Source of the DNA: a virus
Reading direction: 5' to 3' (one strand)
IMG/VR virus record: IMGVR_UViG_3300045933_000157
Span: 1-29,228 of that record
DNA: 29,228 nucleotides
Shown here: positions 12,729 through 29,228 of the stretch, piece after piece
Layout of the letters: each line of letters begins with the position of its first letter
Numbering within the stretch: the stretch's first letter is position 1
The notes under the pieces: model-generated
What the model was told of the DNA's origin: nothing
The model's database searches: none
The model's input: the letters and a program-made list of their open reading frames with translations, nothing else
Translations under genes and position numbers: made by a program

Positions 12729-14387
12729 ATGTCGCCCGCGCGTCCGAAATGGCTCGATGCGCTCTCGCGCAACCCCGTGCACAAATGGGTCGAAGGCGAA
12801 TGGCTCCGCGCCGTGAGCCAGCCCGGCGTTTGGTATGACGAGCGCGCCGCCAAGATCGCCGTGCAATTCTTTCCGAATTATTTGCGCATGACGACCGGGC
12901 GCTGGACGAAGAAAAAGTTTGTGCTTCGCGACTGGCAGGCGGCCATTGTCTCGATGCTCTTCGGCCTCAAGCGCAAGGACGGCACGCGGCTTTATCGGCG
13001 CGTGCTGATCTGGATGGGCCGCAAGAATGGCAAGAGCGAGTTTGCCGCCGGGCTGATGCTCCTCGCTTGGCTATTCGACGGCGAGCTCGGCGGCGAGGCT
13101 TACATCATTGCCTCGACCGAGAAGCAAGCGCAGATCGTCTTTCAGCGCGCCGTGCGTATGGTGCAATTCTCGCCGTCGCTCCCGAAATATGTCGACGCGC
13201 TCAAGACCTCGCTTTATTGCACGGCGCTCGGCGCGGTGATCCGCCCGCTCACTGGCGCGAGCGAGGGCAAGCACGGGCTCTCGTGCTCCATTCTCGTCGG
13301 CGACGAAATGCACGAGTGGCGGAACGGCGATCTCTATGAGTTCGTGCACCAGTCCGAGCTATCGCGGGAGGAGCCGCTCGACATTCTCATCAGCACGGCC
13401 GGGCAAGCGCGTAAGAGCCATGGGTGGGTGCTGTGGGAGGAATCGCTTAAGATCGCGGACGGCACTTTCGATATTCCGAATACGCTGGTGGTGATCTATG
13501 CGCCCGACGCCGAGGACGACTGGCGCGAGCCGACGACATGGGCGAAGGCAAATCCGAACCTCGGGCATTCGATCAAGCTTGCGGATTTGCGCGAGGAGTA
13601 TGCGAAGGCGATCAACAGCCCGCGCGTGGAGAACAATTTCAAGCGCTATCATTTGAACCTATGGGTCGGGCAAGACCAGCGCTGGCTATCGGTCGAGCAA
13701 TGGCGCGTCGGCTCCGGCCGCCCTTCGCTCGGGGCGGACGCGCGCTGGCGCTCCTTCGCCGAGGCGCTTCGCGGGCGCGAATGCTATGGCGCAATTGACT
13801 TGTCGAGCGTCTCGGATTTGACGTGCGTGCTCTGGCTCTTTCCGCCGCGCTCGGAGGAGGAGAAGTGGCTCGTGCTCCCGCGCTTTTGGGTGCCCGCCGA
13901 GAATATCGAGACGCGCTCGCGGCGCGACCGCGTGCCCTACGATATTTGGCGGGAGCGCAAGGCGGTCGAGCCGACGCACGGAAATGTTGTGGACTATGAC
14001 GCTGTGATCGAGGCGGTCCATCAGGGCGTCGAGGCATTCTCGGTCAAGCAAATCGGTTACGACCCCTACAATGCAACCGCGACCGTGAACACGCTCATGA
14101 AGGACGGCGTGCCCTTGATGCTGATGCGGCAGGGGGTGCAAACCTTGAGCGGGGCGTCGAAGCAATTGGAGCGGCTCTGCGCCTCGGCCCGCATTGACGC
14201 GGGCGGGCACCCGGTCATGGACTGGATGGTGTCGAACGTCGCCAAGCTTGAGGACTCGAACGGAAATATAAAACCTGATAAGGCTAGGTCGTCGGAGAAG
14301 ATCGACGGCATATCTTGCCTCGTCATGGCGCTCGCGCTAGCGGACGGACAGCAACAAGAAAAACTGTACCAAGTGATCGTTGTCTGA
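12729..14387 (+). CDS. Phage terminase large subunit (HK97/P27-partner type)
   Basis: A 552-residue packaging motor and nuclease. Walker A is GRKNGKS (residues 97-103), Walker B VGDEMHEW with Asp192-Glu193, and a C-motif-like STAGQA follows. The RNase-H-like nuclease domain supplies acidic residues at Asp357 (AIDLSSVSDLT), Asp445 (GYDPYNA) and Asp526 (EKIDGISCLVMALAL). Length is typical of the Terminase_1 family. It pumps DNA into the procapsid and cuts the concatemer. No frame disruption seen. Confidence 0.95.
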   Translation: MSPARPKWLDALSRNPVHKWVEGEWLRAVSQPGVWYDERAAKIAVQFFPNYLRMTTGRWTKKKFVLRDWQAAIVSMLFGLKRKDGTRLYRRVLIWMGRKNGKSEFAAGLMLLAWLFDGELGGEAYIIASTEKQAQIVFQRAVRMVQFSPSLPKYVDALKTSLYCTALGAVIRPLTGASEGKHGLSCSILVGDEMHEWRNGDLYEFVHQSELSREEPLDILISTAGQARKSHGWVLWEESLKIADGTFDIPNTLVVIYAPDAEDDWREPTTWAKANPNLGHSIKLADLREEYAKAINSPRVENNFKRYHLNLWVGQDQRWLSVEQWRVGSGRPSLGADARWRSFAEALRGRECYGAIDLSSVSDLTCVLWLFPPRSEEEKWLVLPRFWVPAENIETRSRRDRVPYDIWRERKAVEPTHGNVVDYDAVIEAVHQGVEAFSVKQIGYDPYNATATVNTLMKDGVPLMLMRQGVQTLSGASKQLERLCASARIDAGGHPVMDWMVSNVAKLEDSNGNIKPDKARSSEKIDGISCLVMALALADGQQQEKLYQVIVV

Positions 14388-14401
14388 CAGAGGGGTCGTC
14401 C

Positions 14402-16354
14402 ATGGACATGCAGCGGGCCTATGCGTTCCTCGAATGCAAGGCGGTCGATGAGGACCAGCGAATCATCACCGGCATTGCCACGACGCCGACGCCTGATCGA
14501 GCGGGCGACATCATCGAGCCGCTCGGCGTCACCTTCAAAAATCCTTTGCCGCTTCTTTGGCAGCACCGGCACGCGGAGCCGATAGGGCAGACGCGCTTCA
14601 AGAAGCCGACGAAGCAGGGCATCGAATTCGAGGCGCGGATTCCGAAAGTCACGGAGCCGGGCAAGCTAAAGGATCGCGTGGACGAAGCTTGGCAGTCGCT
14701 CAAGCATGGCCTTGTGCGCGCGGTCTCAATCGGCTTTCTGCCGAAAGAATTGTCGTTCATGGAGGACGGCGGTATCCACTTCATCGAAAGTGAAGTGCTG
14801 GAATTGTCGCTCGTTACGATCCCGATGAATGCTGACGCGCGGATCGAAACGATCAAAGCAATCGACGCCCCGCTGCTGGCCGCGTCTGGCATGTCGGCGG
14901 GCGCTCGTCCCCAACCACCCGGCGTCGCGGGAAAATCGAAAGCACAACCCATGAAGACGATTCAAGAGCAGATCCAAGGCTTCGAGGCTTCGCGCGCCGC
15001 CAAGGTGGCTCGCATGGCTTCGATCATGTCATCGGAGGAGGGCGCGACGCTCAATGCGGAGCAAGCCACCGAGTATGACGATATCGAGCGGGAGGTCGGC
15101 GCTATCGACGCGCATCTTGTTCGCTTGCGCAAGCAAGAAGAGTTGAACAAGACCAAGGCCGCTCCGGTCGTCGCTCCTCCGGCCGTTCCGGCTATCGAGG
15201 CGGCGAGCGCCGCGCGCGCTGGCACCATTGTGCAAGTGCTCCCGAAGAAGCTGCCGCCCGGCATTCCCTTCGTGCGCATGGTCGGCGCGCTGGCAATGAC
15301 GCGCGGCAACCGGCACGAGGCGGCGGAGATCGCGAAGCGATGGTCCGACTCCTCGCCGGAAGTCGAGGCGATCCTCCGCACGCCGATGGACGTTATCGAG
15401 CGCGTGGCGGTCTCGCCGGGCACGACCACCAACCCGACGTGGGCGCAGCCGCTCGTCAACTATCAGATCATGGCCTCGGAGTTCATCGAGTATCTCCGGC
15501 CGCTGACCGTGATCGGGCGCATCCAAGGCTTCCGCCGCGTGCCCTTCAATATCAAGGTGCCGCGCCAGACGGCGGGCGCCGCGGTCAACTGGGTCGGCGA
15601 GACGAAGGTCAAGCCGCTGTCCAGCTTGGCGTTCGATACGCTCACTCTCGACTGGTACAAGATCGCGGGCATCGTTCCGCTCTCGGAGGAATTGGTGAGG
15701 TTCTCCTCGCCGTCCGCCGAGCTGCTGGTGCGCGACGACCTTGCCGCCGCCATTGTTCAGTTCATGGATTCGGAATTCCTCGACCCGACCAAGGCGGTCG
15801 CGGCGGGCGTCTCTCCGGCTTCCGTGACCAATGGCGTGACGCCAACGCCAGCCTCGGGCACCACGGCGGCGGCGTTCCGGACTGACGTCAAGAATATGAT
15901 GGCGTCGTTCATCACGGCGGGCTTGCCGGTGTCCAGCGGCGTTTGGATCATGAAGCAGTCGCGCGCAATGGCGCTTTCGCTCATGAACAATGCGCTGGGT
16001 CAAAGCGAGTTCGGCAATATCACCATGACGGGCGGCACGCTCCTCGGCTTCCCAGTGGTGACCTCGGAAGCGGTGCAAGCGACTGGCGGCTCGCCCGCGA
16101 ACGGCGACAACATCATTTTCCTCATCCCGAGCGAGATCATGTTGGCCGACGAGGGCGGCATCAATATCGACGTCAGCCGCGAGGCTTCGCTGCAAATGGA
16201 GTCGACTCCCGACTCGCCGCCGGTTGCGGGGACGGTGCTCGTCTCGCTCTGGCAGCATAACCTCATCGCCGTCAAAGCCGAGCGTTATATCAACTGGCAA
16301 AAGCGGCGCGCGGGAGCCGTCGCCTACATCTCCTTCGCGAAGTATTCACCATAA
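14402..16354 (+). CDS. Fused prohead protease and HK97-type major capsid protein
   Basis: A 650-residue fusion. Residues 1-~165 are an HK97-type prohead protease: IITGIATTPTPDRAGDII, catalytic His55 in LLWQHRHAEPIG, Ser109 in AVSIGFLP, then VLELSLVTIPMNADA. A Ser/Ala/Pro linker leads to a coiled scaffold-like delta domain (MKTIQEQIQGFEASRAAKVA from residue 184, then a Glu-rich helix) and an HK97 coat domain (TTTNPTWAQPLVNYQIMASE, PRQTAGAAVNWVGETK, WYKIAGIVPLSEELVRFSSP, GVWIMKQSRAMALSLMNNAL). In HK97 these are separate genes; fusions are known in some phages. Cleavage at the delta/coat boundary is expected. The start follows AGAGGGG; an in-frame ATG at 14951 could give a capsid-only product. 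Confidence 0.93.
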   Translation: MDMQRAYAFLECKAVDEDQRIITGIATTPTPDRAGDIIEPLGVTFKNPLPLLWQHRHAEPIGQTRFKKPTKQGIEFEARIPKVTEPGKLKDRVDEAWQSLKHGLVRAVSIGFLPKELSFMEDGGIHFIESEVLELSLVTIPMNADARIETIKAIDAPLLAASGMSAGARPQPPGVAGKSKAQPMKTIQEQIQGFEASRAAKVARMASIMSSEEGATLNAEQATEYDDIEREVGAIDAHLVRLRKQEELNKTKAAPVVAPPAVPAIEAASAARAGTIVQVLPKKLPPGIPFVRMVGALAMTRGNRHEAAEIAKRWSDSSPEVEAILRTPMDVIERVAVSPGTTTNPTWAQPLVNYQIMASEFIEYLRPLTVIGRIQGFRRVPFNIKVPRQTAGAAVNWVGETKVKPLSSLAFDTLTLDWYKIAGIVPLSEELVRFSSPSAELLVRDDLAAAIVQFMDSEFLDPTKAVAAGVSPASVTNGVTPTPASGTTAAAFRTDVKNMMASFITAGLPVSSGVWIMKQSRAMALSLMNNALGQSEFGNITMTGGTLLGFPVVTSEAVQATGGSPANGDNIIFLIPSEIMLADEGGINIDVSREASLQMESTPDSPPVAGTVLVSLWQHNLIAVKAERYINWQKRRAGAVAYISFAKYSP

Positions 16355-16757: not shown

Positions 16758-18215
16758 GTGCGACTCTTCGGCTTCGAGATCACCAAGGCGGTCCCCACAG
16801 ACGCCTCAAGCGTTCCGGTAACAATTCCCGGCGACCGTGGCTCATGGTGGTGGCCGATAGTGCGCGAGCCCTATACCGGCGCATGGCAACGCAACGACGA
16901 ATTGCGGCTTGAGACAATTCTCGTCTACAGCACGGTGTTCGCTTGCGTGACGCTCATTGCGAGCGATGTCGGCAAGATCGGCTTGCGGCTGGTCGAGGAG
17001 GACAGCAATGGGATATGGGTGCCGAAGAATGTGCCCGCCTTCTCGCCGGTCCTTCGCAAGCCGAATCGTTATCAGACGCGAATCAAGTTCATCGAAAGCT
17101 GGGTTAGCTCGAAGCTGATCCATGGCAATACCTATGTGCTCAAGGAGCGCGATGATCGCGGCGTCGTGGTCGCGCTCTATGTGCTCGACCCGACGCGGGT
17201 GAAGGTGCTGGTCGCTCCGGACGGCGCGGTCTATTACGACCTCTATACCGACAACCTCGCGGGCATTGAGGTTGACAAGGTCGCGGTTCCGGCGAGCGAG
17301 ATCATTCACGACACCATGATCTGTCTCTATCACCCGCTGGTCGGCGTATCGCCCATGACGGCGTGCGCTATCGCGGCGACGCAAGGGCTGGCGATCCAGC
17401 GCTCCTCCGCCAAGCTGTTTCGCAATGGCGCGGTGCCCGGCGGCATTATCTCGGCGCCCGGCCCGATCAAGGACGACCAAGCGCAACGGATCAAAGACTA
17501 TTGGGAACGCAACTACACCGGCGAGAATGTCGGCAAGGTCGCGGTGCTCGGCGACGGCTTGACCTATTCACAAATTGCGATCAAGGCCGAAGAGGCGCAA
17601 CTGATCGAGCAATTGAAGTGGACGAGCGAGAGCGTGTGTTCGGTCTTTCATGTGCCGCCCTTCATGGTCGGCGTCGGGCCAATGCCGAGCTACAACAATG
17701 TGGAAGCGCTCAACCAACAATACTATTCGCAATGCTTGCAGACCTTCATCGAGAGCATCGAGCTCTCGCTCGACGAAGGGCTCGGGCTCACCGCCGTGCA
17801 AGGCAAGACCTACGGCACAGAGTTCGATCTCGAAGACCTGTTGCGCATGGATACCGCGACCAAAGTGAAGTCGTGGAGCGATCTCGTCAAAGGCGCCATC
17901 GCTTCGCCGAACGAGGCGCGGTTCGCTTTTAACCTTGCGCCGGTCGCTGGCGGCGAGACGCCGCTCGCGCAGCAACAGAACTATTCGCTCGAAGCGCTGG
18001 CGAAGCGCGACGCGCGCGACGATCCTTTCGGCACGGCGGCGCCCGAGCCGGAGAGCGAGCCGGAGCCGGAGCCCGACGAAGAAGAGGAGCCCGACGAGGA
18101 CGAGGAGAAGGACAAGGAGGAGGGTGAGGACGAGAAAAGCGTGCTCGCCGATCTCGTTGCTATCGCGGCGGCGGAGCTACGCTTGCGGCTCTTTCAACCG
18201 GGCATCATGCAATGA
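16758..18215 (+). CDS. HK97-family portal protein
   Basis: A 485-residue portal forming the dodecameric DNA channel at one capsid vertex. Recognisable elements: VYSTVFACVTLIASDVGKIG near the N-terminus, VSSKLIHGNTYVLKERD, LVGVSPMTACAIAATQGLAI, LFRNGAVPGGIISAPGPIKD, GKVAVLGDGLTYSQIAIKAE, and FHVPPFMVGV. The C-terminus is an unusual Glu/Asp/Pro-rich tail of about 30 residues (EPEPEPDEEEEP..) before a final hydrophobic helix. GTG start with a weak ribosome binding site. In most HK97-type phages the portal precedes protease and capsid; here it follows them. Confidence 0.94.
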   Translation: MRLFGFEITKAVPTDASSVPVTIPGDRGSWWWPIVREPYTGAWQRNDELRLETILVYSTVFACVTLIASDVGKIGLRLVEEDSNGIWVPKNVPAFSPVLRKPNRYQTRIKFIESWVSSKLIHGNTYVLKERDDRGVVVALYVLDPTRVKVLVAPDGAVYYDLYTDNLAGIEVDKVAVPASEIIHDTMICLYHPLVGVSPMTACAIAATQGLAIQRSSAKLFRNGAVPGGIISAPGPIKDDQAQRIKDYWERNYTGENVGKVAVLGDGLTYSQIAIKAEEAQLIEQLKWTSESVCSVFHVPPFMVGVGPMPSYNNVEALNQQYYSQCLQTFIESIELSLDEGLGLTAVQGKTYGTEFDLEDLLRMDTATKVKSWSDLVKGAIASPNEARFAFNLAPVAGGETPLAQQQNYSLEALAKRDARDDPFGTAAPEPESEPEPEPDEEEEPDEDEEKDKEEGEDEKSVLADLVAIAAAELRLRLFQPGIMQ

Positions 18216-19228
18216 TGAAGCACCGCGAGGTCTCGGCGTTGATGGCTGGCATCGCGCCGGTCATTCACAAATTCGTCGAGGCCGCGGTCGAGCGCATTGC
18301 CGCGCCGATCCTCGTGCGCCTCGAAGCGCTTGAGAAGCGCCCGGCGCCGGAGCGCGGCGAGCAAGGCCCGCCCGGCCCGCAAGGCGAGGCTGGCCCGCAA
18401 GGCCAGCCCGGCGAGCGCGGGGAGCCCGGCATGGATGGCGTGCAAGGCCCGCCGGGGCCTTTCGGCTCGGCTGGCGCGCAAGGCTTGCAAGGCTTGCCCG
18501 GCCCGCCCGGCGAGCGCGGCGAGAAGGGCGAGCGCGGCGAGAAGGGTGAACCCGGCTGGGATGGCATCAGGGGCGAGAAGGGCGAGCAAGGAGCGAGCGG
18601 CCCGCAAGGAGAGCGCGGGGAGCAAGGCCCGCAAGGAGAGCGCGGTGCGCTGGGCGTGCAAGGCGCGGTTGGCGCGCCCGGCGCCGATGGTGCTCCCGGC
18701 CCGCAAGGAGCGCCCGGCGCTCCCGGCGCTCCCGGCGCTCCCGGCGAGCAAGGCCCGCCCGGCGAAATGGGACCACAGGGCTTGCCCGGCGCTTGCGGCT
18801 TGCCGGGTCTTGACGGCGCGCATGGCAAAGATGGCCGCGACGGCTTGCCGGGCCTGCCCGGTCGCGACGGCAAGGACGGCGCGCCCGGTGCTCGCGGCGA
18901 GGATGGGTTCGGCTTCGACGAATTCGAGGCCGAGTATGATGGTGAGCGCGCGTTCAAGTTTATTTTCATTCGCGGCGAGCGGCGCAAGGAGTTCGCGTTC
19001 AATTTCCCAGTGCCTATCGAGCGCGGCGTCTATGAGGGCGGGCGGCTTTATCAGCGCGGCGACATTGTCTCGTTCGGCGGCTCCTTCTGGATCGCGCAGC
19101 GCGACACCAAGGCTTATCCCGAAACCAACAAGGACTGGCGGCTGGCGGTGAAGCGCGGGCGCGACGGCAAGGATGGCAAGGACGGCCGGGCTGGCGAGCG
19201 CGGAGCGCCGGGCAAGGATGCGCGCTAA
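18212..19228 (+). CDS. Collagen-like fibre protein with carbohydrate-binding-like C-terminus
   Basis: A 338-residue protein overlapping the portal stop by four bases. After a helical N-terminus (FVEAAVERIAAPILVRLEAL) comes a Gly-X-Y triple-helix region from about residue 49 to 232 (GEQGPPGPQGEAGPQGQPG ... GAPGAPGAPGAPGEQGPPG), which should form a collagen-like trimer. A short globular region (FEAEYDGERAFKFIFIRGER) leads to a chitin-binding/CBM5-12-like module near 273-315 (VYEGGRLYQRGDIVSFGGSF, W, KDWRLAVKRG), then a second short Gly-X-Y tail. Position beside portal and connector suggests a head or neck fibre that binds surface glycans; the sugar target is unknown. Confidence 0.88.
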   Translation: MMKHREVSALMAGIAPVIHKFVEAAVERIAAPILVRLEALEKRPAPERGEQGPPGPQGEAGPQGQPGERGEPGMDGVQGPPGPFGSAGAQGLQGLPGPPGERGEKGERGEKGEPGWDGIRGEKGEQGASGPQGERGEQGPQGERGALGVQGAVGAPGADGAPGPQGAPGAPGAPGAPGEQGPPGEMGPQGLPGACGLPGLDGAHGKDGRDGLPGLPGRDGKDGAPGARGEDGFGFDEFEAEYDGERAFKFIFIRGERRKEFAFNFPVPIERGVYEGGRLYQRGDIVSFGGSFWIAQRDTKAYPETNKDWRLAVKRGRDGKDGKDGRAGERGAPGKDAR

Positions 19229-19846: not shown

Positions 19847-20113
19847 ATGAGTAATCAGCAATTGCTAGACGCGCACGTTCATGAGATCGAGACGGCGATC
19901 CGCGACATGGTGGTGCAAGCCATGGGAAAGCCGGAGGCCGAAGCGATAGCGCTCCGCCGCGAGGCGCTCTCGCGCTTGCGCGATACGCTCGGCGAGCAGG
20001 ACCGGGCGCTTGCGCACATGCTGGGCCAGCACGAGCCGAAGGTGCACTTCGCCGAATGTGAGCTCGAAGCGCGCTTCGGCGACTTTGCTCCGCCGGAGGA
20101 GCCAAGGCCGTGA
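19847..20113 (+). CDS. Hypothetical small helical protein
   Basis: An 88-residue protein starting MSNQQLLDAHVHEIETAIRD with GCGAGGA upstream; an upstream in-frame start is less likely. Helical, with a repeated charge pattern (IALRREALSRLRDTLGEQDR) suggesting a coiled-coil. No family recognised; in this position it could be a neck or stopper protein. Its stop overlaps the GTG start of the glycosyltransferase (GTGA). Confidence 0.68.
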   Translation: MSNQQLLDAHVHEIETAIRDMVVQAMGKPEAEAIALRREALSRLRDTLGEQDRALAHMLGQHEPKVHFAECELEARFGDFAPPEEPRP

Positions 20114-21156
20114 AGCGCTGGGCGGGCCTCGCGCGCTTCGGCGGCGTGGGCGACAACCTCATCAGCGCGAGCGTGCTGCGTCCCTTGAAGCGGCTCGGCT
20201 ATATGACCGAGGTCATCACTTCGGCGACCAATGCCTCGGTCTTTTTCAACAACCCGTTTCTGGACAAGCTGTCCATTAAGGATGACGTCAAGGACTTGCC
20301 GCAGGGCGACGCCAATGCGTGGCAGCGCTGGTTCGATAGCCGCGCGAAGGAGTACGATCTATTCCTCCACGCCTCGCATTCATGCGAGGGGCGGCATGCG
20401 CTGTTCACGCACATGACCGGCTTTTGGTGGCCGGAGGATTATCGCCGCAGAATGTGCGGCGGGAGCTACCTCGAAACGGTGCACGATATCATCGGCGTGC
20501 CGCATGAGTTTGGCCCGCTATTCTTTCCGACCGACGAAGAGATGGAGTTCGCCGCGCGTATCAAGAGCAAGGTCGGGCGCTGCATTGTCTGGATCGTGAG
20601 CGGCACGCGCATCGACAAAATCTATCCCTACGCGACCTTCGCCATTGCGCGGGTGGTCAAGGAGCTAGGTATTCCGGTTGTGGTCATGGGCGGCCCGAGC
20701 GACCGCGAAATGGAAATGGTGATGACCATTCGCGAGACGGTCAGGCTGACCAACGGCTCGCTCGATGGTTTGCTGTGCGCTGTGCCGGAAAAGAGCGGCG
20801 AGAAGTGCTGGCCGCTCCGCTCGGCGCTCACCTTCGCGGTCAATGCGGACATGCTAGTCTCGCCGGATACCGGACCCGCATGGGCGTGCGCCTTCGTGCC
20901 GATGCCCAAAATTATCATGGTGTCCCATGCCAGCGCCGAGAATATTACAAAGCATTGGATCAATACGACGACGCTTCACGCAGATCCGCAACGCGTGCCT
21001 TGCTGGCCTTGCCATCGCTTGCACAACGATCAAAGCACATGCGTGCCGAATAAAGAAAATACCGGCGCGGCTTGTATCAGCGACATCAGCGTGGAGCGCA
21101 TGGTGCAAGCGGTGTCGGAGAAATGGCAAAGGCCCGCCGCCGCCGCCGCCGCGTAA
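20110..21156 (+). CDS. Glycosyltransferase family 9-like protein
   Basis: A 348-residue protein with the fold of ADP-heptose-type glycosyltransferases: FGGVGDNLISASVLRPLKRL in the N-terminal Rossmann domain and, in the second domain, IPVVVMGGPSDREMEMVMTI and a nucleotide-sugar site DMLVSPDTGPAWACAFVPMP, close to the conserved DTGP-hydrophobic motif of GT9. A Cys-rich stretch follows (CWPCHRLHNDQSTC). It begins with GTG overlapping the preceding stop. It would transfer a sugar to a phage structural protein or to host lipopolysaccharide; acceptor and donor are unknown. Confidence 0.85.
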   Translation: MKRWAGLARFGGVGDNLISASVLRPLKRLGYMTEVITSATNASVFFNNPFLDKLSIKDDVKDLPQGDANAWQRWFDSRAKEYDLFLHASHSCEGRHALFTHMTGFWWPEDYRRRMCGGSYLETVHDIIGVPHEFGPLFFPTDEEMEFAARIKSKVGRCIVWIVSGTRIDKIYPYATFAIARVVKELGIPVVVMGGPSDREMEMVMTIRETVRLTNGSLDGLLCAVPEKSGEKCWPLRSALTFAVNADMLVSPDTGPAWACAFVPMPKIIMVSHASAENITKHWINTTTLHADPQRVPCWPCHRLHNDQSTCVPNKENTGAACISDISVERMVQAVSEKWQRPAAAAAA

Positions 21157-21191: not shown

Positions 21192-21506
21192 ATGAAAATT
21201 GGTCTGATCGGGGAGATCGGCCGGGAAATATCGGGTGAGGGCTACGAGCGAATCGACGGGAGTAATATTCCGTTCCGAGTCGCCGAACTCGGCGACTTTC
21301 CGATCACCTTCGTCAATGTGATGTCGGTCTATTGGCGGCCAGCGCGCGCGGCATGGGGCAAGATCAGAGCCATTGCATGTTATCGCGACGGCGCGCACGA
21401 GCCCTTCCTATGCTGCGAGCTAGAGGCGCCGGTCGATCTCAAAGCGCGCGAGACATTCTCGCTCGCGCCCGGCAAGCTAAGGTTTGGGATGAGGTTCAAC
21501 GCATGA
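21192..21506 (+). CDS. Hypothetical small beta-rich protein
   Basis: A 104-residue protein, MKIGLIGEIGREISGEGYER; a GTG one codon earlier (21189) is an equally good start. Beta-rich (ITFVNVMSVYWRPARAAWGK, FLCCELEAPVDLKARETFSL, KLRFGMRF). It is set between two glycosyltransferases and may be a structural or accessory protein; no family recognised. Stop overlaps the next ATG by four bases. Confidence 0.65.
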   Translation: MKIGLIGEIGREISGEGYERIDGSNIPFRVAELGDFPITFVNVMSVYWRPARAAWGKIRAIACYRDGAHEPFLCCELEAPVDLKARETFSLAPGKLRFGMRFNA

Positions 21507-22240
21507 GCGGGCTTCTTGAGCTACCGAACGTCACGCTGATTATGATCGAGACGCGAGAGCATAAGCTTGCGCGGCTCGCGCTCGATGCGTGCGTGTCAAA
21601 GGTTTTCTTCGGCGACGTGATCACCTTCACCGACCGGCCGGGCATGTTCCATGACATCAGCCGCGTGGTTAAGGTCGAGGACTGGCCGACCAAGGAGGGC
21701 TGGTCGCGCTTCCTCTGGAACGAGGTGCCGCTCCATGTCCGGACCTCGCACATGCTGGTGATCCAGTGGGATTCGTGGGTGGTCGATCCCGGCATGTGGC
21801 GCGCGGACTTCGAGCGCTACGACTATATCGGCGCGCCATGGTGGTACACCGACGGCTTGAATGTCGGTAACGGCGGCTTCTCCTTGCGCTCGACGGCGCT
21901 TATGCGCTTCGTGCGAGATCGGCGCGCGATATTCCCGTGCGTCAATGCTTGGGACGACGACCAGCTATGCCGGAAGTATCGGCCGACCTTGCAAGAGCGC
22001 TACGGCTTCGTGTGGGCGCCGGGCGATGTCGCCAGCGCTTTTAGTTTCGAGTGTGTGCCGCCGAAGCCGGAGGAGCGACAGTTCGGATTTCACGGAATAT
22101 TCAACTGGCCGAAGGTGATCAACGGCGACGATATCGGGCGGCGCGTGCGGCTGGCTTCCGAGTCGCGCTATATCCGGGGCACAAAGAATATGTGGGACCA
22201 ATTGGTCAAAGCCTATCCCGAGGCGGGCAAGTATGAGTGA
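21503..22240 (+). CDS. DUF5672-type glycosyltransferase
   Basis: A 245-residue protein with the DUF5672 signature: MLVIQWDSWVVDPGMWRADF, RYDYIGAPWWYTDG, VGNGGFSLRSTALMRF, DDQLCRKYRPTL and a final HGIFNWP-like segment. The fold is a nucleotide-diphospho-sugar transferase of the GT-A kind, with an IQWDSW acidic residue in place of a typical DXD. The DUF is commonly found in capsule or polysaccharide loci and in some phages. It probably acts with the GT9-type enzyme upstream. Start at ATG overlapping the preceding stop. Confidence 0.85.
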   Translation: MSGLLELPNVTLIMIETREHKLARLALDACVSKVFFGDVITFTDRPGMFHDISRVVKVEDWPTKEGWSRFLWNEVPLHVRTSHMLVIQWDSWVVDPGMWRADFERYDYIGAPWWYTDGLNVGNGGFSLRSTALMRFVRDRRAIFPCVNAWDDDQLCRKYRPTLQERYGFVWAPGDVASAFSFECVPPKPEERQFGFHGIFNWPKVINGDDIGRRVRLASESRYIRGTKNMWDQLVKAYPEAGKYE

Positions 22241-22943
22241 AGCGCCGAGCGTTGCCGAGCGGGTGAACGGCAAGATCGGAGCCATGCTCAAGGATACCGT
22301 CGCGGCCGGGCCGTTCGCCGGTATGAAAATGCGGGACAATGCCGTGTGGAAGGACGGCAATTATGCGACCAAGCTGACCGGGAGCTACGAGCGGGAATTG
22401 CACCCGTATCTCGAAATGGCCGCCGCTCGGCGCCCGCGAACCATCATCAACGTCGGTTGCTCGGACGGCTTCTATGCGGTCGGGATGGCCCGCATGATGC
22501 CGGAAGCGCGCATTGTCGCGGCCGATATCGACCCACGCTCGCTCCGGCTTTGCCTTGAGAATGCGCACATCAACGGCGTCGCCGAGCGCGTGGCCGTGCT
22601 GGTTGGTTGCCGCAAGCCGGAGGAGCTCGACCGCGGCGAGCCTCGGCGGCTCTACATTGTCGATGTCGAAGGCGGCGAAGTGGAGTTGCTCGACCCGGCG
22701 CGCTGTCCCGCGCTGGCGAAAAGCGATCTGATCGTCGAATGTCACGACTTTTTTAATCCAGCAATTCACAATATAGTCGCGTCGCGATTCAAGGAGACGC
22801 ATCACTTGAGTCTGATCCAGCCAGCACCGCCAGACCCGAAGGATTTTCCGTTCTTGTTCGCGTTGCCTATGGGTGTGCTACTGTTAGCGATCACCGAGAA
22901 CCGCCCGCAGCCGACGACATGGCTAGTGGGTTGGGCAAAGTAG
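22233..22943 (+). CDS. Class I SAM-dependent methyltransferase
   Basis: A 236-residue methyltransferase: motif I IINVGCSDGFYAVGMARMMP, motif II IVAADIDPRSL, a DVEGGEVELL segment resembling the FkbM-type DVEG motif, then a small C-terminal region with FALPMGVLLLA. Overlaps the DUF5672 stop by eight bases. With two glycosyltransferases it may cap a glycan by O-methylation; the substrate is inference. Confidence 0.85.
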   Translation: MSEAPSVAERVNGKIGAMLKDTVAAGPFAGMKMRDNAVWKDGNYATKLTGSYERELHPYLEMAAARRPRTIINVGCSDGFYAVGMARMMPEARIVAADIDPRSLRLCLENAHINGVAERVAVLVGCRKPEELDRGEPRRLYIVDVEGGEVELLDPARCPALAKSDLIVECHDFFNPAIHNIVASRFKETHHLSLIQPAPPDPKDFPFLFALPMGVLLLAITENRPQPTTWLVGWAK

Positions 22944-22965: not shown

Positions 22966-23364
22966 ATGGCAAATATCGGCGCGCCAAATATGAAGTTGAT
23001 GTTGGACTGGAACCTCGGTGGTGCGGCGGCGACGCAACCGCCCGGTCGCTTCGCGGCCTTGTGCCTCGGGACGCCGACCAGCATTACCGGGTCGCCGGAA
23101 GTGCAAGCCAACTCCGGCTATCTCCGGCAAACCGCACTCTTCGGAGCGGCGGCCTCCCCGGCGGGCTCCGCCTCCAATACGGCGGCGATGACGTTCGGGC
23201 CTTTCTCCTCTTCGGCCGCGATCCAAGGGCTCATGCTTTACGACACGGCCTCGATCAATTCCGGCACACTGCTTTGGTACGGCACGCTCCTCACGGCGCG
23301 CACTGTGCTTACGGGCGATACGCTGGTGATCGGCGCGGGCTCGTTGCTCATAACGCTGTTCTAA
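22966..23364 (+). CDS. Putative virion structural protein
   Basis: A 132-residue protein starting MANIGAPNMKLMLDWNLGGA with an AAGGG ribosome binding site. Gly/Ala/Ser/Thr-rich and beta-strand-dominated (ARTVLTGDTLVIGAGSLLIT) like tail or fibre adaptor proteins. No catalytic motif. Placed between the enzyme island and the fibre proteins, so it is probably part of the virion. Confidence 0.7.
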   Translation: MANIGAPNMKLMLDWNLGGAAATQPPGRFAALCLGTPTSITGSPEVQANSGYLRQTALFGAAASPAGSASNTAAMTFGPFSSSAAIQGLMLYDTASINSGTLLWYGTLLTARTVLTGDTLVIGAGSLLITLF

Positions 23365-23409: not shown

Positions 23410-24585
23410 GTGACACTGGTCATCAAGGATCGCGTTCGCGATAGCACGACCTCGACTGGAACTGGTCCGATCACCCTGAGCGGTGTTGCGCCACAGGGCT
23501 ATCGGACGTTTTCGGCGGTCTGTGTGAGCGGTAGCACGGTCTGGTACTGCATCCAGCACCGCACGGCGAATGAGTGGGAAATAGGCGTCGCCACAAGCGA
23601 CGGCGCAAACACTCTCACCCGCACGCAGGTGCTTTCATCCTCGAATGCGGACGCGCTGGTCAGCTTCTCTGCTGGCACCAAGGATGTCTTCCTCACACAG
23701 CCAGCGGACAGGATCGCGTGGGCGGATCAGACATCGCAGCTTCGGCGCACGCTCACCGCCGACGAGCAGTTCTACGTCTCGGGGAGCGGCAATGATGTGA
23801 CGGGTGACGGATCGAGCGCGACGCCGTGGCAAACGCTGACGCGGGCGAACAACTACATCCGCGACTTCCTGAATTTCGGCGGCTTCCGCGTAGACCTCAT
23901 CATGAAGGATGCGGGCACCTATGCAGGTGTGCTCAATCTCGGCGGCTATTTCGGTGGCGGCTTGTTCGTCATTCGCGGCAACACCACGACCAAGACCGAC
24001 TTTGTTATTACTGAAGTGAATTTCCCGGCACTCATGTGGGTGACGCTGGCGACCAGCACTGGAATTATCTTCGATCAATGCACTTTCAAAAACACTGCGT
24101 CGGCAGTCGGCCTCGACTGCGTGAAGGTCTCAACGCAAGCAGAGGTTTTTGTCGCGGCGTATGGCGGCATCGGTTTGGCGCAATCCGTTCACCTCGACTT
24201 CTCGTCAAACCCGACAAACCCGCACGGCTTTGTCTGCCAGAACGGCGGCTTGATGCGGGTGGCCGGAAGCAACACCATCGCAGTCGGCGCGACGGGTATG
24301 CGCGCGATGTATCTTGCCATCGGTCCAGACGACAATTGGCCGGGCGCATCCTTCCTTTATGGCGAAGGGACATGGGCTCTGAGCGCGGCGCTCAATTTCA
24401 CCAGCGCTGGCGCGGTGGCAGGTGATGGTTGCACCGTTTGGTATTTCGACTCGTTCACGGGCTTTGCGGTGACCGGGAAGCGCTTCCGCGCATACACAAA
24501 TGGCGTCATCGGTGCGTTTACCGCGCCGAGCAATTTGCCCGGCAGTACACCCGGCACGCTTGAAACCGGGGGGCAATTCCTATGA
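23410..24585 (+). CDS. Beta-helical tail fibre/spike protein
   Basis: A 391-residue protein with a GTG start behind GGGAGGG. The N-terminal ~95 residues (VIKDRVRDSTTSTGTGPITL ... VSFSAGTKDVFLTQPADR) match the virion-anchor module that starts many phage fibres. The rest, with FYVSGSGNDVTGDGSSATPW and DFVITEVNFPALMWVTLATS, has the repeating strand-turn pattern of a right-handed beta helix, typical of receptor-binding or depolymerase spikes. Catalytic residues cannot be assigned. Its stop overlaps the next ATG by four bases. Confidence 0.85.
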   Translation: MTLVIKDRVRDSTTSTGTGPITLSGVAPQGYRTFSAVCVSGSTVWYCIQHRTANEWEIGVATSDGANTLTRTQVLSSSNADALVSFSAGTKDVFLTQPADRIAWADQTSQLRRTLTADEQFYVSGSGNDVTGDGSSATPWQTLTRANNYIRDFLNFGGFRVDLIMKDAGTYAGVLNLGGYFGGGLFVIRGNTTTKTDFVITEVNFPALMWVTLATSTGIIFDQCTFKNTASAVGLDCVKVSTQAEVFVAAYGGIGLAQSVHLDFSSNPTNPHGFVCQNGGLMRVAGSNTIAVGATGMRAMYLAIGPDDNWPGASFLYGEGTWALSAALNFTSAGAVAGDGCTVWYFDSFTGFAVTGKRFRAYTNGVIGAFTAPSNLPGSTPGTLETGGQFL

Positions 24586-25244
24586 CGCAGGGTCTCACCG
24601 GCGCAATTATCAACGAAAACTATAGCTATCAGACGCCAACGACCGGCGGCACGGTGGTGCTGGCGAACAGTGACTGGAATGTCGTCATCAATCCGGCAAC
24701 GACGCTCGCGGCGCTCACCGTGCAAATGTGCGCCGATCCTTTCGACGGGCAAATTGTCGATATCAAATTTCAGCGCGCGATCATTGCGCTGACCATTTCG
24801 CCGAACACCGGACAGAGCGTTGGCGCGAATGCTCCCGCGACCATGGTGGCGGGCAAGACATTTCAGGCGATCTACCGGCTGGCGACCACAACTTGGTACA
24901 TCAGTTATGACGATGCGACGTTCGACAATGTGGTGACGCTGACCGATGGGGCGACACCGGCACTCGATGCGAGCGCGGGCGGGCAATTCATCCTGAGCGC
25001 GGCGGGGGATCGCACCATCGCCCAACCGACAAATCCAGTGAACGGCCAGAAAATTATCATCAGGCATTTCGCGAGCGGCGGCGCACGCACGCTGTCGCTC
25101 AACACCGGCACGGGAGGCTTTCGTTTCGGGAGCGACATCACCGCCTTGACGCAGACGGTGAGCGGCAAGACCGATTACATCGGTTGCATCTACAACGCGA
25201 CCGACAACAAGTGGGACGTGGTGGCCTACTCCAAGGGGTACTGA
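24582..25244 (+). CDS. Beta-rich tail/fibre protein
   Basis: A 220-residue protein overlapping the spike stop by four bases. Two similar beta-sandwich-like halves: SYQTPTTGGTVVLANSDWNV with LTVQMCADPFDGQIVDIKFQ, and LDASAGGQFILSAAGDRTIA with PTNPVNGQKIIIRHFASGGA. Both halves carry a G-x-x-V/I-x-I-x-F/H pattern, suggesting an internal duplication of a small fibre-type domain. A tail or fibre tip role is inferred from composition and position. Confidence 0.72.
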   Translation: MTQGLTGAIINENYSYQTPTTGGTVVLANSDWNVVINPATTLAALTVQMCADPFDGQIVDIKFQRAIIALTISPNTGQSVGANAPATMVAGKTFQAIYRLATTTWYISYDDATFDNVVTLTDGATPALDASAGGQFILSAAGDRTIAQPTNPVNGQKIIIRHFASGGARTLSLNTGTGGFRFGSDITALTQTVSGKTDYIGCIYNATDNKWDVVAYSKGY

Positions 25245-25247
25245 TGA

Positions 25248-25946
25248 ATGGCCTTCGGTGCTCTCAAGGGAGTTCTGACCGGGGCTGCCGGGTCGATCAC
25301 AAACCCGTTCAATGCAACGGGCTCGGTGTCGGTGGCTGTTGGCGATCTGATCTTTGTCTGTGTTGCCGAACGCAACACAATGACGGCAACAGGCGTCACC
25401 GATAACCTCGGACATACCTACAACGCACTGGATGCCGACGACGCTGGCAATGCGACTGCCGCAACTTTCTGGGTCGTCGCGACATCTGCTGGAACGCTGA
25501 CGCAGGTTTCCGCTGCGGTAACTGCGAGCGGCGCGGACGTTGCAATGTTCGCGGCGGTCTATGAAGGTGTGTTCGCGGCCTCGCCGCTGGACGTAAATCC
25601 AACGACCGTGCTTAACGATATTGCCACGCCGTTTGTTGGGCCTGCCAGCGGCACACTCGCACAAGCCGACGAGTTGGTGCTTGCTTGGTTTGCGCTGACG
25701 AACGGCAGCACGACCATCGGCGTGGGTTCGCCGTTTACGCTCGACAGCAATCCAGCGAGCGGCACAGCGACTAATACAATTGGCGTCGGACTGGCATCGG
25801 ACCTCGTGGCGTCAACCGCCTCGGTACAGCCAAGCTGGACGACATCCACTGGCGGGGCATCGACGGTTCTGGGCTTGGCCTCCTTCAAGAAGGATACCGG
25901 TGGCGGCCCACCGTCAGCGACACATCGAATGTTCGCGGTGTTCTAA
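25248..25946 (+). CDS. Putative tail protein
   Basis: A 232-residue Ala/Gly/Thr-rich, beta-strand protein (SVAVGDLIFVCVAERN, VSAAVTASGADVAMFAAVYE, ADELVLAWFALTNGSTT) ending in SATHRMFAVF. This alternation resembles a common phage or exopolysaccharide-associated surface module, but no motif is definitive. Start immediately after the preceding stop; stop overlaps the next ATG (TAATG). Confidence 0.68.
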   Translation: MAFGALKGVLTGAAGSITNPFNATGSVSVAVGDLIFVCVAERNTMTATGVTDNLGHTYNALDADDAGNATAATFWVVATSAGTLTQVSAAVTASGADVAMFAAVYEGVFAASPLDVNPTTVLNDIATPFVGPASGTLAQADELVLAWFALTNGSTTIGVGSPFTLDSNPASGTATNTIGVGLASDLVASTASVQPSWTTSTGGASTVLGLASFKKDTGGGPPSATHRMFAVF

Positions 25947-26362
25947 TGAACATGCGCTTTCGCCCCGACTGTCCCGCATGCGAGGGAAAGGTCGAGTGCA
26001 AGGGCGGCGGAAACCAGCGTTGCATTCAGCGCGATCCGAAGCCGAGCCGGATCGGCGGAATCCTCGACAGCTATGGCGGCGTGCGAGTGGTGGTGACGCA
26101 TCGAAGCCGCTTCAAGCATCATGTGCGCGCGGGTGAGTTTCTCTGCCTTGTGCCCGGCATCGACAAGCGCGTGCATGAGCCTATCGCGTGGAATGATATC
26201 CCGTTCGTGATCCGCCTCGGCGAGATCGCGGTCGAGGAATTCGTCAAGGCCAACGAGAGCAGCAACGATCCTGAAAAGCGGGAGGCCATTCGCGCGTGGC
26301 GATCACGCCAGACTTGGAATAGACCTAGAGCACTCGACCTCGAAGCGATCTGCTACACATGA
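25946..26362 (+). CDS. Hypothetical protein with N-terminal Cys cluster
   Basis: A 138-residue protein starting MNMRFRPDCPACEGKVECKG, with cysteines at positions 9, 12 and 18 and another at about 26 that could bind zinc. Then an alpha/beta body (GVRVVVTHRSRFKHHVRAGE, EIAVEEFVKANESSNDPEKR). Unknown function; it lies between tail proteins and overlaps the long repeat protein gene by four bases. Confidence 0.68.
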   Translation: MNMRFRPDCPACEGKVECKGGGNQRCIQRDPKPSRIGGILDSYGGVRVVVTHRSRFKHHVRAGEFLCLVPGIDKRVHEPIAWNDIPFVIRLGEIAVEEFVKANESSNDPEKREAIRAWRSRQTWNRPRALDLEAICYT

Positions 26363-29228
26363 CAACCGTCTTTCTTATCGCTTCAAGCACCTCGCCGTGG
26401 AGTCGTCCCGGCGACTGGGCCGATGCTGGGCATCAGGTCGAGTTGGTCGGTGCGGGCGGTGAAGGTGGGCCGGGCGCAACTGGTGCAAGCAACAAGGCGG
26501 GCAGCGGCGGCGGCGCTGGTGGTTATTCCGCACTCACGAATCCTTCCGGCTCGCTTGGATCGACAACGCCGTTCGAGGTTTTCGCAAATTGCACGAGCAC
26601 ATCGAGTGCGGTGGCGTTCTCGACCTACTGGCTCAACACCACAAACACAAATTCCTATCAGGCAACGGCCGGACTCAAGGGCACGGTTAACCCGGGCGCT
26701 GTCGGCACCGGCGGCACTGGCGCGACGAATGGTTCGCCCTCGCCTGTTACTTACACGCGCACAACAAACGCGGGCGGCAACGGCGGCAACAGCGGCGCAG
26801 CCAACGGAGGAGGCGGAGGCGGAGGCGGAGCGGGCGGCCCGACAGGCGCGGGGCAACGCGGCGGCAACGGCTCGGGGGCCACCGGCGTAGCTGGTGGTTG
26901 CGGCGGCGGCGGAAGCAACGGCGGATCATCAACGGCGGGCGGCGATGTTGTCGGCAACGCGGGCGGTGGCGATGGCGGCCACGGCACAGGCGGCACCGGC
27001 GGCGGCACCGGAGGCGGCGCAACTGGCAACCCCGGATCAGTGGGCGGCGGCGGCCAAGGCTCGGGTTCGAGTGCAACGACGGGCGTGCTTGTGCTGGCCG
27101 GTGGCGCGGGCGGCGACCTCGGCAATGTCTCGAGTTGGGTGCAGACATCCGATAGCGCGCAAGCGGGAGCGGGTGGCGGCGGTGGTGCATCGGGTGGAAC
27201 GTCAGGCACGACAACGCCGCAAACTGGCACCGGCGGCGCGGGCGGAAACTACGGCGGCGGTGGCGGCAGTGTTTCGGGACAACGCGCAAACGGCGCGGTA
27301 CTGACACCGGGGCAAGGCGCTGGCGGACTGATCGTTATTTTCTACACGGTCAGCGGGCCGACCGGACAAGCCACGCTGGAAGGTGTCGGATCGCTCTCCG
27401 CCCTCTCGCGGCAAAACCAAACGGGAAGTTCGCGCCTCAACGGCGTTGGCGCTCTCTCCGCAAGCGCGGCACAGCGGCAAGTCATTGCCGCTCGGTTCAA
27501 TGGCGCTGGCTCGCTCTCCGGCATGTGGCTTGCGCCGCAGAAGCAAGGAGCGGCGACGTTCACTGGCGTCGGTAGCCTGAGCGCAAACGTCACGATCAAG
27601 TTCAAGCTTGGCATTGCCGACCTCGATGGCGTCGGTTCGCTGCGCGCGCTCGCAACGCAAAGGCAATTGGCAGTCGCAGACTTCGACGGCGTTGGCTCGC
27701 TGCGATGCAATGCGGCCATTGGTGCCGCGCCTGAGATCACCACCGACGACTGGGGCGGCATCGGCGGCTATCCCATCGGCTCGCTCCCGATAGCGGGAAC
27801 GGAAAAGCCACCAGTTGCACAGATCGTAATCCTCACCGGCGCTGGCTCGCTCTCCATTCAAGCGGTCGTGGTGACCGGCGGCGTGCAAACCGGGCAAGCG
27901 ACATTCGCTGGCGTCGGCTCCTTGCGCGCGAGCGCGGCGCTACGCATGGTCGCTGTTGCCGACTTCGATGGCGTCGGCGCGCTCTCGGTTCAAACACAAA
28001 AGTCGAAGACAGCCACCGCCACCTTCAATGGCACCGGCTCGCTTTCCGCGCTAGCGAATCTCCGGCAAGTCGCGGTCGCTGACTTTGATGGCGTCGGCTC
28101 GCTCTCGGCGCTGGCAACGGCGGCGCAGTCCGCGCGCGCTGAATTGCTCGACGCGGTCGGAAGCCTATCGGCGTCGGCGTCGCTCGCGCAAAGCGCGGCG
28201 GCCGACTTCGATGGCGTCGGCTCGCTCTCGGCGCTTGCCATTGTTGTTGGTGGCGTCACCGCATGGCCCGGCGAGGCCAAGCTCGAGGGCGTGGGCTCGC
28301 TCTCCGCGCTGGCCTCCTCCGCCATGCAGGCGTTCGCCCGCTTCGATGGCGTCGGCTCGCTTTCCATTCAGGCGCGGCAAGCGCAAACGGCGGCGGCCGA
28401 GCTGCTCGATGCGGTCGGCGGCATGTCGGTGTCGGCCAAGGTCGGCCATGGCGCGCGGGCGACCTTCGGCGGCGTCGGCTCCTTCTCGGCGCTCGCTGTT
28501 GCGCGGCGCGGTGCGGTCGCCGACTTCGACGGCGTCGGCAGTCTATCGACCGCGGCCTCGCTGAATCAGAGCGCGCGGGCGACGTTCAATGGCGTCGGCT
28601 CCTTGAGCGCCGAGGCGATCCAAGCCAGCACCGCGAGCGGCGCGGCGACCTTCAATGGCGAGGGCTCGCTCGCCGCGCTCATGACGGCGAACCAGCAAGC
28701 GGTCGCCGACTTCGACGGCGCGGGCTCCTTGGCGGCGCTGGCGACGGCGGTGCTCCCGGCGGTCGCCGACTTCGATGGAGTCGGCTCGCTCGCCGCGCTG
28801 GCGCAGATCCGCACAACGGGGGCGGTTCGCTTCAACGGCGTGGGTTCGCTCGCCGCCAGCGCCCGGCAAGCGCTCCCGGCGACGGCACGCTTCAATGGCG
28901 TCGGCTCCTTCTCGGCGGCGGTGGTGCTCCGAGCGGCAGGCATTGCCGACTTCGATGGCGCGGGCTCGCTCGCGGCGGCGGTGGTCAACCGGACGGTCGC
29001 CTCGGCCCGCTTCTCGGGCGCGGGCTCACTCTTCGCCACCACCACCAGCGTCCAGCAAGCCTCGGCCCGCTTCAATGGCGTCGGCGATCTCTCAGTCGAG
29101 GCGGTGCAAGCGGGCATCGCTATCGGCGCCGCGCGCTTCACCGGCGTGGGCTCCTTGTTCGCGACGACCACCTCGGCGCAGCAAGCGGCGGCCGAATTGC
29201 TCGACGCGCGAGGCGGGCTGGCCGCGAG
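26359..29228 (+). CDS. Glycine-rich tail protein with tandem 20-residue repeats, 3' end outside window
   Basis: The frame starts at the ATG overlapping the preceding stop and stays open to the end of the window (956 codons seen). Residues 1-~90 begin MTTVFLIASSTSPWSRPGDW and give way to a very Gly-rich region (about residues 130-330: GGGGGGGGAGGPTGAG, TGGGTGGGATGNPG). From about residue 335 the protein is a tandem array of ~20-residue units with consensus A-D/R-F-D/N-G-V-G-S-L-S-A-L-A. The Gly-rich part could form a polyglycine-II-type sandwich as in some phage adhesins, and the repeats could form a regular beta solenoid; both are structural inference. It is the last and largest gene in view, typical of a long fibre or adhesin. 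Confidence 0.87.
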   Translation, partial: MTTVFLIASSTSPWSRPGDWADAGHQVELVGAGGEGGPGATGASNKAGSGGGAGGYSALTNPSGSLGSTTPFEVFANCTSTSSAVAFSTYWLNTTNTNSYQATAGLKGTVNPGAVGTGGTGATNGSPSPVTYTRTTNAGGNGGNSGAANGGGGGGGGAGGPTGAGQRGGNGSGATGVAGGCGGGGSNGGSSTAGGDVVGNAGGGDGGHGTGGTGGGTGGGATGNPGSVGGGGQGSGSSATTGVLVLAGGAGGDLGNVSSWVQTSDSAQAGAGGGGGASGGTSGTTTPQTGTGGAGGNYGGGGGSVSGQRANGAVLTPGQGAGGLIVIFYTVSGPTGQATLEGVGSLSALSRQNQTGSSRLNGVGALSASAAQRQVIAARFNGAGSLSGMWLAPQKQGAATFTGVGSLSANVTIKFKLGIADLDGVGSLRALATQRQLAVADFDGVGSLRCNAAIGAAPEITTDDWGGIGGYPIGSLPIAGTEKPPVAQIVILTGAGSLSIQAVVVTGGVQTGQATFAGVGSLRASAALRMVAVADFDGVGALSVQTQKSKTATATFNGTGSLSALANLRQVAVADFDGVGSLSALATAAQSARAELLDAVGSLSASASLAQSAAADFDGVGSLSALAIVVGGVTAWPGEAKLEGVGSLSALASSAMQAFARFDGVGSLSIQARQAQTAAAELLDAVGGMSVSAKVGHGARATFGGVGSFSALAVARRGAVADFDGVGSLSTAASLNQSARATFNGVGSLSAEAIQASTASGAATFNGEGSLAALMTANQQAVADFDGAGSLAALATAVLPAVADFDGVGSLAALAQIRTTGAVRFNGVGSLAASARQALPATARFNGVGSFSAAVVLRAAGIADFDGAGSLAAAVVNRTVASARFSGAGSLFATTTSVQQASARFNGVGDLSVEAVQAGIAIGAARFTGVGSLFATTTSAQQAAAELLDARGGLAA
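27361..29228 (+). repeat. About 30 tandem ~60-bp coding repeats
   Basis: Units are usually 60 bp and always in whole codons (20 residues, occasionally 19-26), each containing a GGCGTCGGCTCGCTC-like core encoding GVGSLS. Sites of the core include 28028, 28088, 28208, 28346, 28466, 28526, 28586, 28712, 28772, 28832, 28892, 28952 and 29012. The nucleotide copies are diverged while the protein motif is kept, so the array is under selection at protein level. It continues beyond the window. Confidence 0.88.

Follow-up and report, generated by a model that had tools for sequence, protein, structure and literature searches.

The window analyzed here, a 29,228-base virus record (IMG/VR record IMGVR_UViG_3300045933_000157), ends within the gene for a giant protein that consists of a glycine-rich head followed by a tandem array of 20-residue units of the GVGSLSA type. 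The open reading frame (ORF) at 26359..29226 on the plus strand starts with ATG, shares 4 bases with the end of the preceding ORF (25946..26362), and stays open for 956 codons to the window end. The IMG/VR contig 3300049730_000010 (L005; L-numbers are labels of viral contigs) overlaps the window end by 838 identical bases and completes the gene, the 3' end of which is identical in a second contig, L012. The original prediction, made from the window sequence, was that the frame leaves the window and that the protein exceeds 956 residues. Completing the gene, as had been suggested, bore this out: the full protein has 1305 aa and comprises a 335-residue head, 44 units, and a basic 37-residue C-terminal tail. 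The head (residues 1-335; 26359..27363, plus strand) contains 33% Gly. The array (27367..29228, plus strand) holds 28 complete units and a truncated 29th within the window, in line with the "about 30" units predicted; the 44 units of the completed protein were counted by motif, and a retrained profile gave the same count. A 30-residue nonrepeat insert (residues 459-488; 27733..27822, plus strand) places the units at residues 439 and 489 50 residues apart. Upstream of the repeat gene lies F1 (22966..23364, plus strand), a 132-aa protein that matches the Pfam family PF23140, "Podophage GP4 fiber I protein gp80" (72.7 bits; cut-off, 27).

Period, conservation, and length variation of the repeat

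Residue autocorrelation over the repeats of the full-length protein peaked at a lag of 20 residues with 27.2% identity, while 1000 shuffles gave no value above 15.4% at any lag, confirming the tandem 20-residue repeat. Based on 722 units from 25 proteins, the unit consensus is A-A-T-F-x-G-A-G-S-L-S-A-x-A-x-x-x-x-x-A, and the spacing between units was exactly 20 residues in 488 of 697 cases. The period had been described as very regular; it is mostly 20, but spacings of 18-25 also occur, in addition to the 30-residue insert. At the DNA level, the units are strongly divergent (mean identity of ~50%, and 75% for the closest pair), and Tandem Repeats Finder picked up just fragments of the array. 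Codon positions 1, 2, and 3 agreed at 54%, 53%, and 41%, respectively, and random synonymous codons for these residues gave 37 ± 1% at position 3. Because third codon positions are near saturation, the 20-residue period is maintained by protein-level selection; together with the lag-20 identity, this supports the earlier proposal of selection on the unit despite divergent codons. A slight leftover trace of common descent among the units is present at the DNA level.

Within unit positions 1-14, even positions hold small or hydrophobic residues and are 6% polar, as opposed to 58% for odd positions, where Ser/Thr account for 40%. As judged from composition, this alternation is the pattern of β strands with one buried face. 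A pentapeptide-repeat fold, which was considered for a 20-residue coil, does not fit the conserved positions, which alternate by two and not by five, and was dropped. We also dropped a basic C-terminal tail as a rule for the family: most of the 25 proteins are basic over their last 40 residues, and 4 are net negative.

To follow changes in length, we compared gaps of at least 5 residues between related protein pairs. In the repeats of the L013/L015 pair, we found a gap of 20 residues; three more gaps, of 38 (near column 565), 8, and 6 residues, fall at the head-repeat border. The L028/L030 pair had in-repeat gaps of 20, 20, and 20 residues in the first repeat gene and of 20 and 61 in the second. 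For the cultured phages BcepIL02 and BcepMigl, gaps of 20, 40, and 25 residues were in the repeats, and gaps of 14, 9, and 26 lay toward the C-terminal end. The weakly periodic CRP-5/CRP-4 pair had gaps of 15, 22, 9, and 9 residues, while the MEP401/MEP402 pair was identical at 241 of 271 residues and gap-free. Gaps in the heads were irregular in size. Thus, the earlier idea that length changes by gain or loss of units finds support among relatives, in which in-repeat gaps are mostly of 20 or 40 residues; among contigs of the same virus, repeat length was unchanged. By scan, relatives form a natural repeat-count series of about 6 to 54 units that suits a direct test of length control in a virion fiber.

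L028 (L028:6846-13100) and L030 (L030:7209-12716) each carry two adjacent repeat-protein genes, both with 20-residue units, and L014 also has two. The largest member that we observed is a 2555-residue ORF right after F1 with 16 recognized units (L074:2685-10349).

The repeat had not been recognized as a named family, and this holds for the databases covered: scans of the whole repeat protein against Pfam (E up to 1), PHROGs, and NCBIfam gave no match, as did phmmer against the PDB and a search of a plasmid collection. Nevertheless, many uncultured phages carry the repeat, and it also occurs in cultured ones. Queries for the repeat and F1 (134 and 596 pattern stretches) detected no relatives in bacterial genome contigs at that sensitivity and named no host or prophage. 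Literature searches, with most subscription journals outside their scope, returned no description of the repeat or its link to gp80, and a term search of PMC13252515 returned nothing. The literature drawn on here comprises PMC10966104, PMC9608196, PMC10491603, PMC13033339, and PMC11966396.

Linkage of repeat proteins to the gp80 family

In addition to its Pfam family, F1 matches PHROG 240 "head protein" and chain E of PDB entry 8jou (E 0.0013), which contains 10 gp80 chains. Among 20 repeat loci, F1 was the most common neighboring family (16 of 20), followed by proteins similar to glycosyltransferase family 9 (GT9-like; 11 of 20), DUF5672 proteins (10 of 20), and methyltransferase-like proteins (7 of 20). 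L013 also has F1.

When viral contigs were scanned with F1 as the sole query, 51 loci were identified. Of the 41 that extend at least 3 kb downstream of F1, 32 have a same-strand repeat ORF there, as does 1 of the 10 shorter ones. Without the 9 contigs already known from the repeat queries, the count was 23 of 32, and 19 of 28 after each near-identical group was collapsed to a single locus. Of 42 independent F1 loci, 35 have GT9-like genes. In 78 portal-relative control loci (788 kb), we found 0 repeat ORFs, 0 F1 genes, and GT9-like genes in 7; these loci were shorter (median, 8.9 kb; 32 of 78 were at least 10 kb), which tilts the comparison somewhat toward linkage. Different-sequence ORFs with a 20-residue period occurred near F1 in five of the nine loci that lack a GVGSLSA-type ORF, among the next genes in L073, L095, and L097 and further away in L077 and L094; the period is thus retained where the GVGSLSA sequence is not.

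For cultured phages, the set comprised 11 named phage records with a gp80 homologue and included ctvy9321, which lacks a clear period. Mvi-JY20, a gp80 tblastn match that the F1 profile did not confirm, was removed before counting. In 10 of 11 records, the strongest period of the gene after the gp80 homologue was close to 20 or 40 residues, and in 6 of 11 its lag-20 z score was at least 4, while a 20-residue period was found in 1 of 80 other ORFs around gp80 homologues. De novo unit counts for the genes beside gp80 were 11 in BcepIL02, Itty13, and POI1126, 10 in ctjtQ328, 12 in MEP401, 16 in Rumpelstiltskin, 6 in BcepMigl and PBC5, and 7 in phiM5 and CRP-5; the unit scores of the latter four phages were modestly above those of shuffles. 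The counter includes flanking segments that are not unit-like (the first and last in MEP401, which has 10 units by eye). Compared with the ~10-12 units in several of these phages, the window protein has 44, and the window adds a glycine-rich head and glycan genes. BcepIL02 gp55 and gp56 both carry a virion-associated annotation, and in phiM5, particles were found to contain the gp80 homologue.

Proteins of cultured phages offer close comparisons. Units of the window kind, i.e., 20-residue units of the GVGSLSA type, are present in MEP401 gp59 and MEP402 gp62 (Methylophilales), which differ in being short (271 aa) and in having no separate head. Magritte gp27 (Microbacterium) also has such units; it differs in carrying a phosphodiesterase-family domain and in that F1 was not found in the 12.6 kb searched. 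In the Mycobacterium phage Rumpelstiltskin, gp24 (minor tail protein) lies directly after the gp80 homologue and has a Gly_rich_2 domain (81.3 bits) followed by 20-residue repeats, but its unit sequence is not GVGSLSA. Together, these data support a real, widespread, and modular repeat protein whose genes are strongly linked to those of the gp80 family and which would act in a fiber.

Heads and a candidate fiber backbone

By phmmer (3e-40), the heads of the window protein and of the L011 protein are homologous. The structural model of the window head is weak (predicted local distance difference test [pLDDT], 57.8; predicted template modeling score [pTM], 0.65) and best resembled the fiber of cyanophage Pam3 (7ypx; Z 16.2, 190 aligned residues, root mean square deviation [rmsd] of 2.6), followed by a tail-tip chain of mycobacteriophage Bxb1 (9d93 Qa; Z 12.4); the next unrelated match had a Z of 6.2. 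For Pam3, the authors of the study assign the glycine-rich domain of tail fiber gp24 to receptor recognition and place it at the C-terminal end of a trimeric fiber; the window head is N-terminal instead. Gly_rich_2 (PF21722) did not match the window head, and the related L015 head reached 17.2 bits, below the cut-off of 24.3. Other members have different heads: that of L030 is a LamG domain (78.2 bits; cut-off, 27.6), L014 bears an SPRY-like insert that scores below its cut-off, and Magritte gp27 has the phosphodiesterase-family domain. By sequence comparison, the repeat family is modular, with similar units joined to very different heads. In L033 (L033:3704-6577), the C-terminal part of the repeat protein matches PHROG 384, a virion structural protein (E 1.2e-28), which is a direct hint of a virion location for that relative.

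Fiber I of the Ralstonia podophage GP4 reportedly has five gp80 dimers joined by an elongated rope protein. Given this layout, the simplest reading of the gene next to gp80 is that it encodes the rope. The window resembles GP4 in encoding a gp80-family protein (PF23140; 8jou) upstream of the repeat gene, and cultured relatives have the 20-residue period in the gene after the gp80 homologue. We favor as probable, on sequence grounds, a reading in which the window protein forms the backbone of a virion fiber of the GP4 fiber I kind and works with F1. The rope would be the 20-residue-period protein encoded beside gp80, and the window protein a much enlarged version with an added head. In this scheme, the N-terminal glycine-rich head would be a receptor-binding-type domain, and the array an elongated β-structured stalk or rope acting with F1 and probably carrying F1 subunits. 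Phage lineages would alter fiber length in whole units and exchange heads, and the products of the neighboring glycosyltransferase-like and methyltransferase-like genes may modify the fiber. The neck fibers of Anabaena phage A-1(L) are comparable as a bead-chain virion fiber, the length of which comes from many copies of the bead protein, but the accessible parts of that study describe no repeat backbone.

The backbone reading is supported by the linkage, the F1 family assignment, the periodic next genes, and, as indirect evidence of virion presence, the virion-associated proteins of BcepIL02 and phiM5. It is also supported by the 10 gp80 chains in 8jou alongside 10-12 units in several, but not all, of these next genes, the portal, capsid, and connector neighbors, the Pam3-like head, and the quantized gaps. 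If correct, an unannotated and widespread class of giant phage proteins gains a partner, a testable role, and a tie to the GP4 fiber type.

Several observations weigh against this reading. F1 and the repeat gene are not adjacent in the window, with four ORFs lying between them. Among the 41 F1 loci followed by at least 3 kb of sequence, nine lack a downstream ORF of the GVGSLSA type, and 4 of these (L072, L090, L092, and L096) have neither kind of 20-residue ORF downstream; the control loci have the length bias described above. Conversely, F1 was not found beside the repeat proteins in the 12.6 kb of Magritte or in L028, L019, L025, L027, and L037, most of which end nearby. BcepMigl, the F1 of which is nearest to that of GP4, has in gp57 a weak period (z 3.5) without clear units, and PDB searches with the unit profile, BcepIL02 gp56, and BcepMigl gp57 retrieved no rope-like chain by sequence. 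Finally, if the predicted solenoid described below is right, its rungs would be too closely spaced to take one F1 subunit each.

The most serious rival, to which we give somewhat less than an even chance, is that the array is a free-standing β-solenoid stalk with one rung per unit, ~21 nm long for 44 rungs, that displays the head, with F1 a separate virion protein of the same cassette. AlphaFold2 modeling of 8 units, within the range of 6-10 proposed earlier, with 39 aligned sequences predicted a regular β structure in which each unit forms a 5-residue and a 10-residue strand (pLDDT, 78.8; pTM, 0.68), and the strict in/out alternation of polar residues fits such a fold. The unit profile matched 3jx8 in the PDB (E 8.4e-8) as well as 3ljy, 3pet, 3lyc, and 4opw (E of 5e-4 or lower), and the first match not recognized as related to the 3jx8 group was at E 0.24 or weaker, with the next unrelated one at E 0.31. 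Structural realignment was best with 3pet (Z 14.6, 146 aligned residues, rmsd 2.4), but many other, unrelated β-helices scored Z 12-13. Foldseek of the unit model gave nothing in the PDB at an E of 0.001 or lower and, in a viral library, only uncharacterized phage proteins (best template modeling score, 0.73; E 0.0075). We take 3jx8, 3ljy, 3pet, 3lyc, and 4ygu to have the GIN/DUF2807 fold; these adhesin-like proteins resemble the window protein in unit profile and predicted fold, possibly through composition bias, and differ in that they are labeled nonphage and that Pfam assigns the window protein to none of its families at E up to 1. Moreover, monomer predictions of repeats may collapse into a solenoid, and a solenoid stalk leaves the tight F1 linkage unexplained. 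The original prediction of a solenoid or fibrous stalk is thus compatible with the model and the adhesin-like profile match, but an extended, bead-carrying rope may also fit.

A bolder extension of the backbone reading, which we regard as rather unlikely, is that the array is a molecular ruler with one gp80-type subunit per unit setting bead number and length, so that phages adjust length by whole units, that the transferases glycosylate the outward Ser/Thr residues, and that the resulting coated fiber with exchangeable heads is encoded by a single cassette moving between unrelated phages. Solenoids rise by ~0.48-0.5 nm per rung. Because ~0.5 nm is too small for an F1 subunit per unit, the solenoid and one-unit-one-bead models are mutually exclusive.

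We consider it unlikely that the protein is instead a head or capsid decoration fiber that is mechanistically unrelated to GP4 fiber I and mainly attaches to surfaces or mucus-like matrices. In L011 and L026, repeat genes adjoin genes for the portal or capsid, and in Magritte they lie between capsid and tail genes; F1 matches a PHROG named "head protein"; and the LamG head of L030 and the SPRY-like insert of L014 would suit such attachment. However, gene position varies among phages and is therefore weak evidence, and PF23140 is named after a fiber protein. A low-complexity tract expanded by slippage without specific function, as the repetitiveness and 23% alanine might suggest, is highly improbable given that unit DNA differs by ~50% with the core positions kept, that the spacing of 20 recurs across distant phages, and that the array is linked to F1.

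Neighboring genes and the cassette

Four families, F1 to F4, are encoded upstream of the repeat gene in the window, all on the plus strand. F2 (20110..21156) is GT9-like (PF01075, E 0.00037, just under the cut-off), and its L011 member exceeds the PF01075 cut-off. F3 (21404..22240; start codon uncertain) is a DUF5672 protein (PF18922, 60.4 bits; cut-off, 24.4), and F4 (22233..22943) is methyltransferase-like (PF06325, 26.4 bits; cut-off, 22). Between F1 and the repeat gene are four plus-strand ORFs of 391, 220, 232, and 138 aa (23410..26362), the last of which overlaps the repeat ATG by 4 bases; PHROGs gave only weak matches, to two of the four. Downstream of the repeat gene, L005 has more glycan-type genes (GT9, TylF, and another methyltransferase).

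The position of the cassette varies: it lies before a portal gene, before a capsid gene, or before a head-tail connector gene. Core genes also differ among the phages: the portal beside the repeat gene belongs to PHROG 156 in L011 versus PHROG 2271 and 12 in L026. The cassette seems to be mobile as a unit because portal relatives of the window phage lack it.

Elsewhere in the window, a collagen-like Gly-X-Y protein (18212..19228; PF01391, 122 bits) is encoded immediately after the portal gene and ahead of the head-tail connector, and the prohead protease and major capsid protein form a single ORF (14315..16354; PF04586 and PF05065). A long Ala/Lys-rich ORF on the minus strand (9017..10243) lies opposite a long open frame on the plus strand (9158..10597).

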